Positions 13,797 through 18,643 of a stretch of DNA of 64,000 nucleotides are shown here, piece by piece. The DNA comes from an uncultured Clostridia bacterium. GTDB taxonomy: Bacteria; Bacillota; Clostridia; Oscillospirales; Ruminococcaceae. The position numbers and the translations under genes were made by a program. The DNA is taken from assembly GCA_944387915.1 (NCBI GenBank), contig CALXGT010000003.1, positions 1 through 64,000 of the forward strand, given 5' to 3'. The notes beneath the pieces were generated by a model. That model was not told the origin of the DNA. It saw only the letters and a list, made by a program, of their open reading frames with translations, and made no database searches. How positions within the stretch are numbered: position 1 is the first letter of the stretch; each line of letters opens with the position of its first letter.

Positions 13797-14126
13797 TCAG
13801 TCGAGAATCTCCATCACTTTGCCGCAGCAAATGGGAATGGGCTCGCCCTTTTTCACATGCACGGTTTTATTGCAGGTCACACAGTAGACATCGGTGTCGT
13901 ACGGAGCGATCACCTGAGCCGTCGTATTCTTCTCTTCTTCAGAAAGACCCTGAATAAAGAAACGCGCTACGTTATTTTCCTGAGGCTGATACACGCCGAT
14001 AGGCTCAAGGCTTTTGGAATCGCCGATACAGTTTCCCATCTTGATCCAAAGCGCTTCCAGCTCCGCCGTTTCGCGCGCATTTTCGGGGATAAACTCAGCA
14101 ATCGCTTTATCCAATCTGATTTTCAT
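13797..14126 (-). CDS. Desulfoferrodoxin-type (Dx-like) iron-site protein, new fusion
   Basis: 109 residues. The last 31 resemble the desulforedoxin-like N-terminal module of desulfoferrodoxin: C-x2-C (YCVTCNKTV), then CCGKVMEIL, the classic four-cysteine FeS4 or zinc site with a CCG-x2-M ending. In desulfoferrodoxin this module is N-terminal and followed by a superoxide reductase domain; here it is C-terminal behind about 75 residues I cannot assign, and the SOR domain is absent. It lies 26 bases after the reverse rubrerythrin gene, so it is probably co-expressed and may act as an electron-transfer or metal-binding partner in peroxide defence (inference). Confidence 0.7.
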   Translation of the reverse strand: MKIRLDKAIAEFIPENARETAELEALWIKMGNCIGDSKSLEPIGVYQPQENNVARFFIQGLSEEEKNTTAQVIAPYDTDVYCVTCNKTVHVKKGEPIPICCGKVMEILD

Positions 14127-14152
14127 AAGAACACCTTACCCATTCACGAATC

Positions 14153-14743
14153 TTATTTGCCGAAATATCTCTCCAGCAGACCTTTGAGGGCTTTGCCGTG
14201 TCTCGCTTCGTCTCTGGCCATCTCGTGAACGGTGTCATGGATGGCGTCGAGGCCGTTTTTCTTCGCGCAGGCAGCTAGGTCAACTTTACCCTGGGTAGCG
14301 CCGAATTCGCAATCTACACGCCAAGCCAGATTCGCTTTGGTGGAGTTTTTCATATTGGGCTCCAGCGTTTCGCCAAGCAGCTCGGCAAATTTTGCCGCAT
14401 GCTCCGCCTCTTCGTAAGCGGCTTTCTCCCAGTAAAGACCGATCTCGGGATAACCCTCTCTATGAGCGATACGCGCCATGCACAGATACATACCCACTTC
14501 GGAGCACTCGCCGTTGAAATTGGCTTTCAACTGCTCAAGGATGTACGCTTTGTCTTCGGCGCTGATGTCGTTATTATTGGCAACGGTTTTCTCGTAAACG
14601 CCAAAGTCATGCTCCGCAGCCAGTACCAAATCGCCCTTTTGCTCTACAAATTTCGAAGCAGGCGCCTTACACTGGGGGCAAGCCTCGGGGGGCGTTTCGC
14701 CTTCGTAAACATAACCGCAAACGGTGCAAACAAATTTTTTCAT
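14153..14743 (-). CDS. Reverse rubrerythrin (NADH-linked peroxidase component)
   Basis: 196 residues. The rubredoxin domain comes first ([10 protein letters not shown] and CPQCKAP, residues 6-27) and the diiron ferritin-like domain second, with E-x2-H type ligands in [26 protein letters not shown] and [10 protein letters not shown]. This reversed order matches the revRbr proteins of clostridia, which reduce H2O2 (and O2) using electrons from NADH via rubredoxin reductase. The gene has a near-perfect promoter with a palindrome upstream, and heads an operon with the Dx-like gene. AAGGAGG precedes the ATG. Confidence 0.93.
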
Positions 14744-14790
14744 TTTGATTTCCTCCTTAACTTTTTATGCGCTTTCTTGTTGTTGCCTTT

Positions 14791-14819
14791 ATTATACCGG
14801 GCAAAAACGCGTTTGTCAA
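14791..14819 (-). promoter_or_regulatory. Consensus promoter of the reverse rubrerythrin operon
   Basis: On the minus strand TTGACA (14819-14814), exactly 17 bases, TATAAT (14796-14791): both hexamers match the sigma-A consensus. Such a strong core promoter usually needs a repressor. Confidence 0.92.
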
Positions 14820-14824
14820 TAGTT

Positions 14825-14843
14825 TTTTAGAAAAATTCTAAAA
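14825..14843. promoter_or_regulatory. Palindromic operator candidate upstream of the rubrerythrin promoter
   Basis: TTTTAGAA-AAA-TTCTAAAA is a perfect 8-3-8 inverted repeat that ends 5 bases upstream of the -35 element. It is AT-rich like PerR/Fur-type sites but does not match the 7-1-7 Per box. It is a candidate binding site for a redox regulator. Confidence 0.5.
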
Positions 14844-14861
14844 TATTTTTTTCAAAGAAAC

Positions 14862-14890
14862 GCCGGGGTAAACGCATTGTTCTCCCCGGC
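14862..14890 (-). terminator. Terminator of the rubrerythrin gene
   Basis: GCCGGGG / CCCCGGC with a 15-base loop, 8 bases past the stop at 14898. The minus-strand T-run is interrupted (GTTTCTTTG). Confidence 0.6.
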
Positions 14891-14897
14891 TGTTCCC

Positions 14898-15446
14898 TTA
14901 ATAATTTACTTTCCGAACCTCAAAGTAGCTTCTCGGATGGGCGCAAACCGGGCAGACCTCGGGCGCCTTTTTGCCGATGACCAGATGGCCGCAGTTTCTG
15001 CACTCCCACATGGTCTCCTCGCTCTTTTCGAACACCTTTTGCATCTCCACATTGTTCAAAAGGGCACGATACCGTTCCTCATGAGATTTTTCGATCGCGG
15101 CGACGCCGCGAAATTGAGCGGCAAGCTCCTTAAAGCCTTCTTCTTCCGCTTCTTTGGCAAACCGATCATACATATCGGTCCACTCGTAGTTTTCGCCGGC
15201 AGCAGCCGCAGCCAGATTTTCCGCCGTTTGGCCCAGCTCGCCCAGCGCTTTAAACCAGAGTTTGGCATGTTCTTTCTCGTTGTCCGCCGTCTTCTGGAAG
15301 ATTTCCGCGATTTGCTCATACCCTTCTTTTTTCGCCACCGAAGCGAAATAGGTGTACTTGTTTCTCGCCTGGCTCTCGCCGGCAAAGGCCTCGAGGAGAT
15401 TTTTCTCCGTCTTGGTTCCCGCGTAAATCGATTTTTTCTGTTCCAT
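14898..15446 (-). CDS. rbr: Rubrerythrin (classical domain order)
   Basis: 182 residues. The ferritin-like diiron domain comes first ([33 protein letters not shown]) and the rubredoxin domain last (CRNCGHLV and CPVCAHP). It reduces hydrogen peroxide to water in anaerobes. ATG 15446 is chosen because AGGAGG lies 8 bases upstream; an upstream in-frame GTG overlaps that site. It has its own promoter and terminator, separate from the reverse rubrerythrin operon next to it. Confidence 0.95.
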
Positions 15447-15511
15447 ATACCGCACCTCCTATGTTGATTTTACCGAATCCCGTCTCTATTGCGGCGGGCT
15501 TCCTCGCTCTC

Positions 15512-15618: not shown

Positions 15619-17997
15619 TTAGAAAGAATCATTCCATAAAACCGTTCCGGTAGAAATTTGTATCGCCGTAATGTTATTTTCGTTTACCAAATACAACCTA
15701 TCTCCCGAAATGGTTCCCCATTCATACAACGCACCGCAGGGAATTTTCGCCACCGGCTCAAAGCCGCCGGTATACCGATACAGGTAACAGAAAGTTTCCG
15801 TTACGCCTTCCCCGGTGGTCTTTTGCGCGGTAAAGAAAATCAGATTGGTGGCGGGATCAAATTGCAAGCCGGTGTACGCCCCTACCCCTTCTTCCGCGGG
15901 AATCAAAAGGGAAGAATACAACGTCCCCTCCGCCAAAGAGGTAATCGCGAGGGAAAGGCCGGTTTCATCCGAAACCAGTTCCAGCTCATAACCTTCCACA
16001 AAAGGAATCGCATCCTTTTCCCCTAAAATTACATCGGAGGAGAGAGATTCTGACTCGCCGGTAAAGGAGAGGGTGTGCACCTGCCCGCCCGAGAGATAAT
16101 AAACGGTTCCTTGCCGGAACATCGCAACTCGCACCGTCGATTCCACGGTCGTCGAAATCTCCGCCACATAGCCTAAAGACGGGTCAAATTGAGTGAGAGC
16201 CAAAGTACCGTCTCCAGATTGGGTCAAAAGGAACAAAGACCCCAAATTTTCTCCCGCCGACGCCGTATGGTACAGCATACTCCCGTATACCGCCGTCTCT
16301 CCCGCAAAGAAAAACGCGCCTTTATCGATGGTGTATTTGGAAATTACCGTCCGGGGAACGCCCTTTTCTTCGCTTGCGCCAAAGAGGTATATGCCTCTAT
16401 CGGCGAGATAAAGGCCCTTTCCCCCTCCGGCCACCGCCACAATATCCACATAATAAGGCGACGTCCCCATAGGCATAGCGCCCAACACGCGATATCCTCC
16501 CACGCCGCTTTCACTGAGATCCACGTCATTGGCGCTCAATCGAGAAGATACGCCGCCCGCGCCATAGCTCGGCATAAAGGAATCGGGATTCTCCAAAGTA
16601 TATCCGCTAAGGGGAAGATAATCGGTCACCAAATACAACTGGGACGCATAAACTCTTCCGGCAAGATATTTCCCGCTCTGGAAAAGAGTATTTTGATACA
16701 CGGGCAAAGCATTGGAAAACTGGTAAAAGCTCGCCGCCGTATACACATTGCCGGAAAGGGTTTCTACCTCGGTAACTACCGCTAAAATCCCGTTTTCGTA
16801 AAACACATCCCGCAAGGAGAGGCTTACCGTCTCTTCCGCCGCCGAAAGCTGTACCGTTACCGGATACTCTCCCAAAACGCCGGTACTGCTCTCCGCCAGA
16901 TCGTAAACCCGCAAAGCGGGACCGGTCTCCCCTTCAATTACGGTAAGGCCATAACCTCCCGAGAAGAAGACCGGTTCCTTCTCCTCCGAAAACGGCTCCT
17001 CGGTAAATATCGTAACAGCCTCTTCCCCCACATTCTGCGTCAATGCGTCGAAAATTCCCTGGTAAGGAGACGCCACTGCTACGAAAACACCAACCTGGTG
17101 CGCCATCGACATAAATTTCCCCAAAGGGGAGCTAAGAATCTCGTTTTTCAAAATGCCCGCCGATTCGGAAATGGTATTCGAAGGATTCGAAACGGTTTCG
17201 GAAGATTCTTCGCCGTCTTGCGGCTTAGAAGAAACCGACTCGGATTCTTCTTTCCCGGCGTCGCCGCTTTCCGACCCGCTATTTTCTTCAATGTCCGGCT
17301 CCTCATTCGAATCGGAAGACGTCGTTCCCGACGGTTCCCAATCGTTTTCCTCTCTCGAAGGCTCAGATACCGGTTTGCTATTCTCCTCGGATGCTGTCTC
17401 AGATCCGCTTTCTTCGGAAGTATTTTCCTCGGAAGCATTTTCTTCGGAGGGAGGCTCGCCTAACGCCGGCCCGGGAAAAGAGGATGCAAAGGAGTTTCCG
17501 TCAGGATCATGAATAATGGGGTTCTCCGGAGGATGTTTCTTTCCGGTATTTTCCTCTCCGCTTTCGGAAGAAGAACTGCTTTCCGGCGCCTTTGCGCTGC
17601 TTTCCGTATGGGAAGATTCTTCCGAGGAAACGCTGCTGTCTTCTGAACTCGAGAAAGCGGAGGAAGCAGAAGAAGACGCATTCCATTCACTTTCCTCCCG
17701 ACTTTCCTCGCTGTTGTCAACGCGAATGTACTCGGAGGAAGAAATGGGCTGAATGGAGCGCCCGGAAAGGTATTCCTTTACCGCCGCGTTCCCGGTAATG
17801 ACCAAGGCGATACATGTCACCGCCGCCAGCGCATAGGGCGACAATCTCCGGTAAAGGGAACGGGGCTTTTTGTCCGGCAGGCGCTTCATCATCATTTCCG
17901 GCGAGACAGAAAGAGGAACCGGCGTAGACTCCGCTTTCTTTAAGATCTGTTCTACAATTTCTTCTTTCCATAAGTTATCGCGATTTTCTTTGCCCAT
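15619..17997 (-). CDS. Membrane-anchored beta-propeller protein, probable anti-sigma factor
   Basis: 792 residues. About 55 cytosolic residues (WKEEIVEQILKKAE ...) precede one membrane helix (YALAAVTCIALVITGNAAV, about 56-74). A Ser/Glu-rich linker of roughly 200 residues with repeats such as NASEE/NTSEE follows, then a C-terminal domain of about 500 residues resembling the secreted beta-propeller family PF09826 (GKYLAGRVYASQLYLVTDYLPL-like segment). The gene directly follows an ECF sigma gene, which suggests that the N-terminus sequesters the sigma factor and the propeller senses something outside. The N-terminus lacks the HxxxCxxC zinc anti-sigma motif. GGGAGGGG precedes the ATG. Confidence 0.75.
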   Translation of the reverse strand: MGKENRDNLWKEEIVEQILKKAESTPVPLSVSPEMMMKRLPDKKPRSLYRRLSPYALAAVTCIALVITGNAAVKEYLSGRSIQPISSSEYIRVDNSEESREESEWNASSSASSAFSSSEDSSVSSEESSHTESSAKAPESSSSSESGEENTGKKHPPENPIIHDPDGNSFASSFPGPALGEPPSEENASEENTSEESGSETASEENSKPVSEPSREENDWEPSGTTSSDSNEEPDIEENSGSESGDAGKEESESVSSKPQDGEESSETVSNPSNTISESAGILKNEILSSPLGKFMSMAHQVGVFVAVASPYQGIFDALTQNVGEEAVTIFTEEPFSEEKEPVFFSGGYGLTVIEGETGPALRVYDLAESSTGVLGEYPVTVQLSAAEETVSLSLRDVFYENGILAVVTEVETLSGNVYTAASFYQFSNALPVYQNTLFQSGKYLAGRVYASQLYLVTDYLPLSGYTLENPDSFMPSYGAGGVSSRLSANDVDLSESGVGGYRVLGAMPMGTSPYYVDIVAVAGGGKGLYLADRGIYLFGASEEKGVPRTVISKYTIDKGAFFFAGETAVYGSMLYHTASAGENLGSLFLLTQSGDGTLALTQFDPSLGYVAEISTTVESTVRVAMFRQGTVYYLSGGQVHTLSFTGESESLSSDVILGEKDAIPFVEGYELELVSDETGLSLAITSLAEGTLYSSLLIPAEEGVGAYTGLQFDPATNLIFFTAQKTTGEGVTETFCYLYRYTGGFEPVAKIPCGALYEWGTISGDRLYLVNENNITAIQISTGTVLWNDSF

Positions 17998-18031
17998 CGG
18001 ATTCCCCTCCCTTCTCTGTAAACTATTAAAA

Positions 18032-18553
18032 CTATGTTTCTTTTAGATATTCTTTCATCTTTCCCAAAGCCCTGCTTTGCTTGGAACGAACGGTATTTCG
18101 ATTCTTATGAAGCATCTTTGCGATTTCGTCGCTGTTGTAGCCGCCGAACACGTTTAACGAAATAATCATCCGTTCCTCGTCGCTCAGCGCTTCGAACGCC
18201 TTTTTGAGATCCATACGCTCCGATGTATCCGATTCAAAGGAAAGCGCGGAGAGGTCGGTCTCCGAAAGAAGCGTCTCCCGGCTCCGACCAGCGTAGCTTT
18301 TTAGTTTCCGTTTACATTTTGCCGACAAAATCTTAAACATCCAGCCTCGAAAAGCATCCGCGTTTTTCAGCTTTCCAAGGCCGACATACGCATCCATCAC
18401 CGCGTCGCTCACCGCGTCCTCGGCATCTTGCTGATCTTTTAGTACATAATAGGCGAATTTATACAGATCGTTATATATTTTTCCGTACAGAGCAGAAAAA
18501 GCTTCCTTGCTTCCTTTCTGCGCCGCCTTTACTAAATCGGCGGATTCCGACAT
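18032..18553 (-). CDS. ECF (extracytoplasmic function) RNA polymerase sigma factor
   Basis: 173 residues. Region 2 (ALYGKIYNDLYKFAYYVLKDQQDAEDAVSDAVMDAY) recognises the -10 element; region 4 (LSDEERMIISLNVFGGYNSDEIAKMLHKNRNTVRSKQSRAL) holds the helix-turn-helix for the -35. ATG 18553 is preceded by AGAGGTGAGGAG; the longer frame to 18625 runs through the promoter repeat and is rejected. The beta-propeller gene follows after 34 bases, so it is the likely partner anti-sigma factor. A 9-bp inverted repeat flanks the putative promoter. Confidence 0.92.
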   Translation of the reverse strand: MSESADLVKAAQKGSKEAFSALYGKIYNDLYKFAYYVLKDQQDAEDAVSDAVMDAYVGLGKLKNADAFRGWMFKILSAKCKRKLKSYAGRSRETLLSETDLSALSFESDTSERMDLKKAFEALSDEERMIISLNVFGGYNSDEIAKMLHKNRNTVRSKQSRALGKMKEYLKET

Positions 18554-18585: not shown

Positions 18586-18628
18586 GAATTGCCGTTTCTA
18601 TAATAATAGTGTCTTTTTTCGGCAATTC
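18586..18628 (-). promoter_or_regulatory. Promoter and flanking inverted repeat of the sigma operon
   Basis: GAATTGCCG (18586-18594) and CGGCAATTC (18620-18628) are perfect 9-bp arms 25 bases apart. On the minus strand the first arm contains TTGCCG (18625-18620), 17 bases before TATAGA (18602-18597). The repeat is well placed to bind a dimeric regulator or to mark autoregulation. Confidence 0.55.
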
Positions 18629-18643
18629 TGTTGCATTTTTCCT

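Follow-up and report, generated by a model that had tools for sequence, protein, structure and literature searches.

An extracytoplasmic function sigma factor gene and its neighbour, a putative membrane anti-sigma factor with a beta-propeller ectodomain

The gene pair and the layout of the propeller protein

The window, a stretch of 64,000 nucleotides (positions 1 to 64,000 of contig CALXGT010000003.1, assembly GCA_944387915.1), comes from an uncultured Clostridia bacterium of the Ruminococcaceae, a relative of gut species. On its reverse strand lie an extracytoplasmic function (ECF) sigma factor gene (18032..18553) and, 34 bp downstream of it, the gene of a putative membrane anti-sigma factor with a beta-propeller ectodomain (15619..17997, 792 residues; open reading frame (ORF), PF09826 match and model). 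The original prediction had placed a sigma gene and a propeller gene side by side at 15619-18553, and both ORFs were indeed found there, with Pfam matches over cut-off. The sigma gene starts with ATG and encodes 173 residues. Its matches to Sigma70_r2 (PF04542, E=8.7e-10) and Sigma70_r4_2 (PF08281, E=5.4e-10) both exceeded the cut-off, and the NCBIfam model TIGR02937 (sigma70-ECF superfamily) scored 89.5 bits against a cut-off of 42.9. The protein contains only Sigma-70 regions 2 and 4, as defines an ECF sigma factor. Upstream, also on the reverse strand, a predicted autoregulatory ECF promoter (18608..18635) matches the pattern described below exactly: TGCAACA at 18635-18629, 17 bases, and CACT at 18611-18608, with 54 bases between promoter and sigma start codon. 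A scan of the operon for sigma-70 promoters and terminators gave nothing that clearly exceeded shuffled controls.

The propeller protein begins with a cytosolic tail of 53 residues (17839..17997). Composition, model and an alignment of 117 distinct partners mark it as a putative zinc-free anti-sigma domain of two helices. Neither cysteine nor histidine occurs in residues 1-53, so that the Hx3Cx2C motif of zinc-binding class I domains is absent, as the original prediction had said of the short cytosolic domain. A Pfam scan of the tail up to E=10 gave no match. Its conserved core, residues 28-40 (PLSVSPEMMMKRL; 17878..17916), follows the pattern P..L.PENI..ML of the 117-row alignment, in which the listed positions are conserved at 94% (P), 82% (L), 69% (P), 58% (E), 47% (N), 48% (I), 39% (M) and 76% (L). 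A single membrane helix follows (residues 54-77, 17767..17838; model and hydrophobic sequence). It shows the Ala-Ala-Cys pattern of the family in a looser form; the three residues are present in 89%, 88% and 54% of the rows.

Residues 78-340 (16978..17766) form a Ser/Glu-rich spacer that is predicted to be disordered, from its composition and from a predicted local distance difference test score (pLDDT) mostly below 50. Serine, glutamate and aspartate make up 53% of residues 78-290, including 61 serines. The spacer of 200 residues claimed earlier holds for this Ser/Glu-rich part, which measures about 210, but the whole disordered spacer is longer, at about 260. The AlphaFold2 model, built with 47 relatives, placed tail helices at 3-24 and 33-39 and the membrane helix at 54-77. 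Residues from about 80 to 339 came out disordered, and 343-791 folded into an all-beta domain (pLDDT mostly 76-96, with a dip near 649-665). The model agrees with the one membrane helix and the large external propeller of the original prediction.

The external beta-propeller (residues 341-792, 15622..16977) was recognised by PF09826 (E=6.6e-13, 48.8 bits against a cut-off of 22.4), although the best stretch spans only residues 413-575, or profile positions 89-255 of 495. It is by the model only that a full propeller domain is present, with a continuous, many-stranded all-beta fold at 343-791 and propellers as structural matches. The top match in VIA-align was 3wj9_B (Z 18.1, 351 residues aligned, root-mean-square deviation (rmsd) 4.0). 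eIF2A, EMC, BamB and other propellers in the VIA-align list were not accepted as indications of function, and a sequence search for a PF09826 structure (E up to 0.1) found none.

Linkage of propeller, tail and sigma gene

The original prediction had proposed a survey of PF09826 neighbourhoods for linked ECF genes, and this survey supported the pairing from both sides. Of 148 genomes from the window's family, 57 contain PF09826. In the 56 other than the window's, 55 of 60 PF09826 places (the window's own copy excluded, second fragments of the same frame merged) had a sigma gene immediately upstream in the same orientation. Two of the 55 were counted by position, with no full propeller ORF around the match, in a broken frame (L080) and at a contig end (L084). 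Of the five exceptions, two are weak matches in a single genome, and the other three, all in another genome, are copies that start with a signal-peptide-like stretch. Genome G136 holds three sigma-free copies with signal-peptide-like starts (L043, L044) together with an anchored, sigma-linked copy (L073).

In the phylum, 101 of 398 sampled genomes also contained PF09826. We took 40 regions from these 101 and 40 from the 47 order genomes that had matches, selecting for full-length matches and, in the phylum, mostly for distinct genera. Among the 40 order-level or same-family loci, one of which (L130) yielded no ORF by our own propeller profile, 18 of 41 propeller ORFs were sigma-linked. One of the 18 (L103) has a 44-residue sigma fragment and a signal-peptide-like start and is probably no true pair; in an unlinked case (L107) a sigma gene lies 311 bases upstream of a propeller ORF that lacks its N-terminal part. 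Outside the order, linkage fell to 1 of 40 propeller ORFs (39 genomes). Unlinked ORFs mostly start with a signal-peptide-like stretch, as judged by hydropathy and by eye. At one locus, a tandem of PF09826 genes (L126, L127) consists of an anchored, sigma-linked first gene and a second gene with a signal-peptide-like start, and one locus therefore carries both forms of propeller. A search of the genome contigs with the window's propeller sequence alone returned no relatives.

In the reverse direction, a profile built from 43 of these sigma factors gave 69 matches, including the window's, in 68 of the 148 family genomes (E <= 1e-38), one per genome with a single exception. In named genomes, among the best 80 of 322 confirmed loci, a propeller adjoined 55 of the 63 sigma genes scoring at least 150 bits and none of the 17 weaker ones. 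Three of the 63 loci end with the contig and five show another partner or none; seven of the 63 sigma factors are identical to ones from the family genomes. The pair occurs in records of Ruminococcus flavefaciens, Anaerotruncus, Marasmitruncus massiliensis, Muricomes intestini and Mediterraneibacter, and anchored PF09826 proteins with a sigma gene in genomes labelled Oscillospiraceae, Ruminococcus and Lachnospiraceae. Two metagenome-assembled records titled Muribaculaceae and Alistipes, of another phylum, also contain it (L237, L242) and are possibly mislabelled or mixed bins.

Beyond the pair itself, any gene family was common to at most 12 loci and its position varied, so that the wider neighbourhood gives no functional hint. 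These genome comparisons show that the two genes remain together across genera while their neighbours change. Just downstream of the window's pair, at 13797-15455 on the same strand, lie three ORFs that we take, from their sequences, to be two rubrerythrin-like and one desulfoferrodoxin-like gene. The rubrerythrin-like family is the second most common neighbour, found at 7 loci (L045 and six others) at varying positions and strands.

The tail goes with the sigma gene. In 139 ORFs uncut at the start, a median of 57 residues preceded the strongest hydrophobic stretch in the 74 linked ORFs, as opposed to 9 in the 65 unlinked ones. More than 25 residues seemed to precede it in eight unlinked ORFs, in which, by eye, the start codon looks to have been called too early. 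As far as these sequences tell, a long cytosolic tail accompanies the sigma gene and is absent from most sigma-free propeller relatives. On the propeller tree, well-supported branches carry at least six switches of linkage. The long tail switches with linkage in about five of six independent pairs, an association that is suggestive only (sign test, median p 0.0625).

The ratio of nonsynonymous to synonymous substitution rates (dN/dS) between the window's pair and a copy from the same genus was 0.025 for sigma, 0.088 for the tail, 0.021 for the membrane helix, 0.266 for the spacer and 0.203 for the propeller; these ratios are rough because dS is 0.9-1.8. In this comparison sigma, tail and helix evolve slowly and spacer and propeller faster, a segment-wise contrast which argues that the pair is more than a chance association.

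We also inspected partners with other ectodomains. Seventeen sigma loci were taken from 17 family genomes, 16 of them without a PF09826 match in the genome search and one a second sigma copy (in G122). An uncut downstream ORF was present at 15 of the 17, and all 15 ORFs (145 to 662 residues) have a tail followed by a stretch hydrophobic enough for a membrane helix, while their ectodomains differ or are tiny. Five are weakly propeller-like: one (L311) passed the PF09826 Pfam cut-off when scanned (37.4 bits), and four (L301, L305, L307, L315) matched our own propeller profile weakly. The rest are without detectable propeller similarity. In these partners, tail and helix persist where the propeller has been eroded or replaced.

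Two partners of family-type sigma factors, L269 (4527-5633) and L309 (1017-1979), have at their C-termini a domain of about 155 residues that also occurs in L297 (4458-5741; E=3e-17 and 8e-20); no Pfam model matched it over cut-off. L297 is an anti-sigma-like protein of Lutispora whose sigma factor belongs to another clade. Conversely, sigma factors beside PF09826 fall at several places in the sigma tree, with at least three changes forced by well-supported branches, and their tails seem dissimilar. Because propeller and sigma trees have long branches, recruitments can be counted only approximately. Since separate-clade sigma factors adjoin PF09826 and one sigma group carries other ectodomains, ectodomains seem to have been exchanged between ECF systems in both directions. 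A comparable layout of short tail, hydrophobic stretch and ectodomain directly downstream of an ECF gene is seen in DUF4179 proteins (L282, L284, L295, L296), which differ in having another ectodomain and sigma factors outside the family type.

TolB domains are propellers. Such a domain is annotated at the C-terminus of Tt-TolB (TTE0322) of Thermoanaerobacter tengcongensis, the closest precedent for the window's protein: there too a sigma gene, for Tt-RpoE1, directly precedes the gene of a protein built from a short tail, a single membrane helix and a large domain at the C-terminus (Liu et al. 2012, PMC3397946). According to the part of that report available to us, the 39-residue tail of Tt-TolB binds Tt-RpoE1 in a two-hybrid assay, Tt-TolB inhibits Tt-RpoE1 in in vitro transcription, and Tt-RpoE1 transcribes its own gene (PMC3397946). 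The same part treats Tt-TolB as a single case and describes no family (PMC3397946). The comparison with the window's protein is one of layout, and the promoters differ, tGTTAC-N16-CGTC for Tt-RpoE1 (PMC3397946) and GCAA[CTG]A-N17-CACT for the window's group. The shared layout makes an anti-sigma function of the window's protein likely and lowers its novelty.

These observations bear on a different explanation, namely that the propeller protein is only a co-transcribed surface target of the sigma factor and that the real anti-sigma factor is encoded elsewhere or lacking. A single predicted autoregulatory promoter shared by the pair would be expected from such an arrangement, and the unlinked relatives look secreted and have no sigma gene, so that a propeller can have an independent life. 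However, a mere target does not account well for a tail that tracks the sigma gene and is strongly constrained (dN/dS as given above), for partners that keep tail and helix beside sigma without a recognisable propeller, or for Tt-TolB, a proven anti-sigma factor of the same layout in the part of the report available to us (PMC3397946). We regard this explanation as improbable.

Promoter class and search for targets

Of 52 family-type sigma genes, 37 carry the pattern GCAA[CTG]A-N16-18-CACT upstream; none of 22 other propeller-linked sigma genes does. The chance expectation of the pattern, with shuffles as control, was 0.0057 per gene (266 bp). In the shortest reading, the spacer measures 17 bases in 35 of the 37, 18 in L071 and 13 in L034, for which a reading of 17 is also possible. 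The form with exactly 17 bases also precedes the sigma genes of 9 of 17 additional family loci and, among the best 80 of 322 loci in named genomes, 24 of 63, including some Lachnospiraceae. The sequence comparison shows that most sigma genes of the family have a promoter class of their own in front of them, and by the same comparison the group shares this class as autoregulated ECF systems do. The same promoter also stands before sigma genes whose partner has no PF09826 match (L217 in G120, L218 in G039) and before the second sigma copy of G122 (L214).

In the window's own genome, the pattern with 16-18 bases had three matches, and a 17-base spacer occurred only in that of the operon. When up to three mismatches were allowed to a longer, window-type pattern, the operon's promoter was the sole match. 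Across the family, a strict pattern matched 41 times, compared with 5 for the reversed control. Twenty-two of the 41 are promoters of sigma genes, and at 19 of these a Pfam propeller lies alongside. Seventeen of the other 19 were viewed in context (G113:C2:339808 and G002:C6 were left out): 12 lie inside an ORF of more than 130 residues and five do not. We do not claim a regulon. Three of these five precede the genes of predicted lipoproteins or of a secreted protein at a distance of 15-44 bases (L204, ORF from about 1064; L212, a 160-residue ORF on the reverse strand; L213, ORF from about 1077), and these genes are possible regulon members in single species.

Taken on sequence, the matches in the window's own genome suggest that the operon is its own main target. 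One could go further and propose a self-contained switch, in which essentially the one strong target of sigma is its own operon and the propeller is both input and main output. We consider this rather doubtful. If it were true, the signal would set the number of propellers displayed by the cell, a whole sigma factor would be devoted to one surface protein, and the module could exchange its ectodomain or do without it, keeping sigma, tail and often the promoter.

A proposed membrane-bound sensor of the sigma factor

We propose the following course of events. The 53-residue, zinc-free tail would bind sigma regions 2 and 4 with its two helices and thereby keep sigma off RNA polymerase. The disordered spacer would hold the propeller, an exchangeable sensor, away from the membrane. 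An external signal would free sigma, most likely through cleavage outside the membrane followed by a site-2 protease, that is, by regulated intramembrane proteolysis. Free sigma would then transcribe its own operon from TGCAACA-N17-CACT; a stronger signal would thereby yield more sensor, and the switch would reset itself. We infer tail binding, sensor role and proteolytic release from the combined evidence, and likewise that the propeller is a sensor rather than merely an attached ectodomain.

The short zinc-free tail fits a class II anti-sigma domain, as far as the model can tell. Three classes of anti-sigma domains have been distinguished, of which the zinc-binding class I is defined by Hx3Cx2C; class I domains (ASDI) average 101 +/- 33 residues, and domains of less than 50 were set aside as possible class II, in the part of the report available to us (PMC7406223). 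The window's tail, with its two helices, has 53. The same part describes CnrY, the class II partner of CnrH (4cxf), as a short, zinc-free, two-helix domain like the one considered here (PMC7406223). CnrY is from Cupriavidus, and its likeness to the tail considered here is one of helices and of modelled sigma shape.

In an AlphaFold2 model of a single read-through chain with sigma and tail from a relative (L272), the tail motif reached a pLDDT of 90-95, and linker and membrane part about 56 or less. The modelled sigma factor resembled SigW in SigW-RsiW (Z 16.9, 158 residues aligned, rmsd 3.5) and CnrH in CnrH-CnrY (Z 15.1, 152, 3.8) and was unlike the holoenzyme arrangement (rmsd about 27). Its shape fits 4cxf and 5wuq. 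In the class II layout the first helix would lie on region 4 and the second on region 2; the contacts themselves are not visible in the model. The model also bears on the sign of the interaction. The membrane protein could be a positive partner whose tail, once the propeller is engaged, delivers or activates sigma; activation and inhibition would leave the same co-occurrence, tail motif and conservation. Against this, the modelled sigma factor adopts a shape seen in some inhibited complexes, and Tt-TolB lowers in vitro transcription by its sigma factor, as stated in the part of the report available to us (PMC3397946). We think activation very improbable.

The release step is more open to variation. 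To our knowledge, the ectodomains of RsiV and RsiP, membrane anti-sigma factors of other Bacillota, are not propellers. In other respects these proteins and their sigma factors, sigma-V and sigma-P, resemble the system proposed here, in which a membrane anti-sigma factor answers an external signal and is degraded by regulated intramembrane proteolysis. As described in the available parts of the reports, RsiV and RsiP are broken down in this way, and their signals are lysozyme and beta-lactams (PMC5014341, PMC9044953, PMC8844934). This precedent, together with a member of the site-2 protease family PF02163 in the window's genome (E=2.2e-63), speaks against release by a shape change, phosphorylation or a redox step. 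The many serines of the spacer and the cysteine frequent in the membrane helix point the other way, and such a non-proteolytic release, a variant compatible with our best explanation, seems to us a fair way short of favoured but a serious contender.

Several observations weigh against the proposed system. The strict promoter match is absent from 15 of 52 family sigma genes, 8 of 17 additional ones and 39 of 63 in named genomes (among the best 80 of 322). In the window's genome and three relatives, no second convincing promoter target was found and the reversed control yielded an equal number of matches, so no regulon emerged that would back a sensory role. The longer window-type pattern also misses the known sigma promoter of G082, and targets may therefore have been overlooked. 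Family-type sigma factors do not form one branch in a quick sigma tree (3 changes, 2 forced), and the eroded ectodomains of some relatives imply that the propeller is not always needed. The modelled chain is a read-through of sigma and tail from a relative (L272), not the window's pair; docking of the tail was read only from confidence and sigma shape; sigmaE-RseA and AlgU-MucA match the model over region 2 only (Z 8.6-8.9); and AlphaFold2 may fold a lone ECF sigma factor likewise. Finally, PF02163 matched all 14 of 14 control genomes too, which makes its presence weak support.

On balance, the best reading of the pair is one autoregulated operon for an ECF sigma factor and its zinc-free membrane anti-sigma factor, in which the tail inhibits and the propeller senses; we put its probability at about 85%. 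A literature search found no paper on a PF09826 anti-sigma factor and no assigned role for this widespread propeller family, whose accession appeared in a single one of the papers searched. New within that literature are the tail motif and the promoter, the use of PF09826 as an ectodomain and the extent of the group. The window's protein belongs by its Pfam match to the same propeller family as the secreted PF09826 proteins; it differs from the unlinked forms, mostly with signal-peptide-like starts and no sigma gene, in being anchored with a cytosolic tail. Where paired with a sigma gene, the family probably serves as the outside sensor. Anchored PF09826 members can now be tested for a function as the ectodomains of ECF anti-sigma factors, the short tail motif could be used to find zinc-free anti-sigma domains, and the exact promoter GCAA[CTG]A-N17-CACT would be suited to reporter use.

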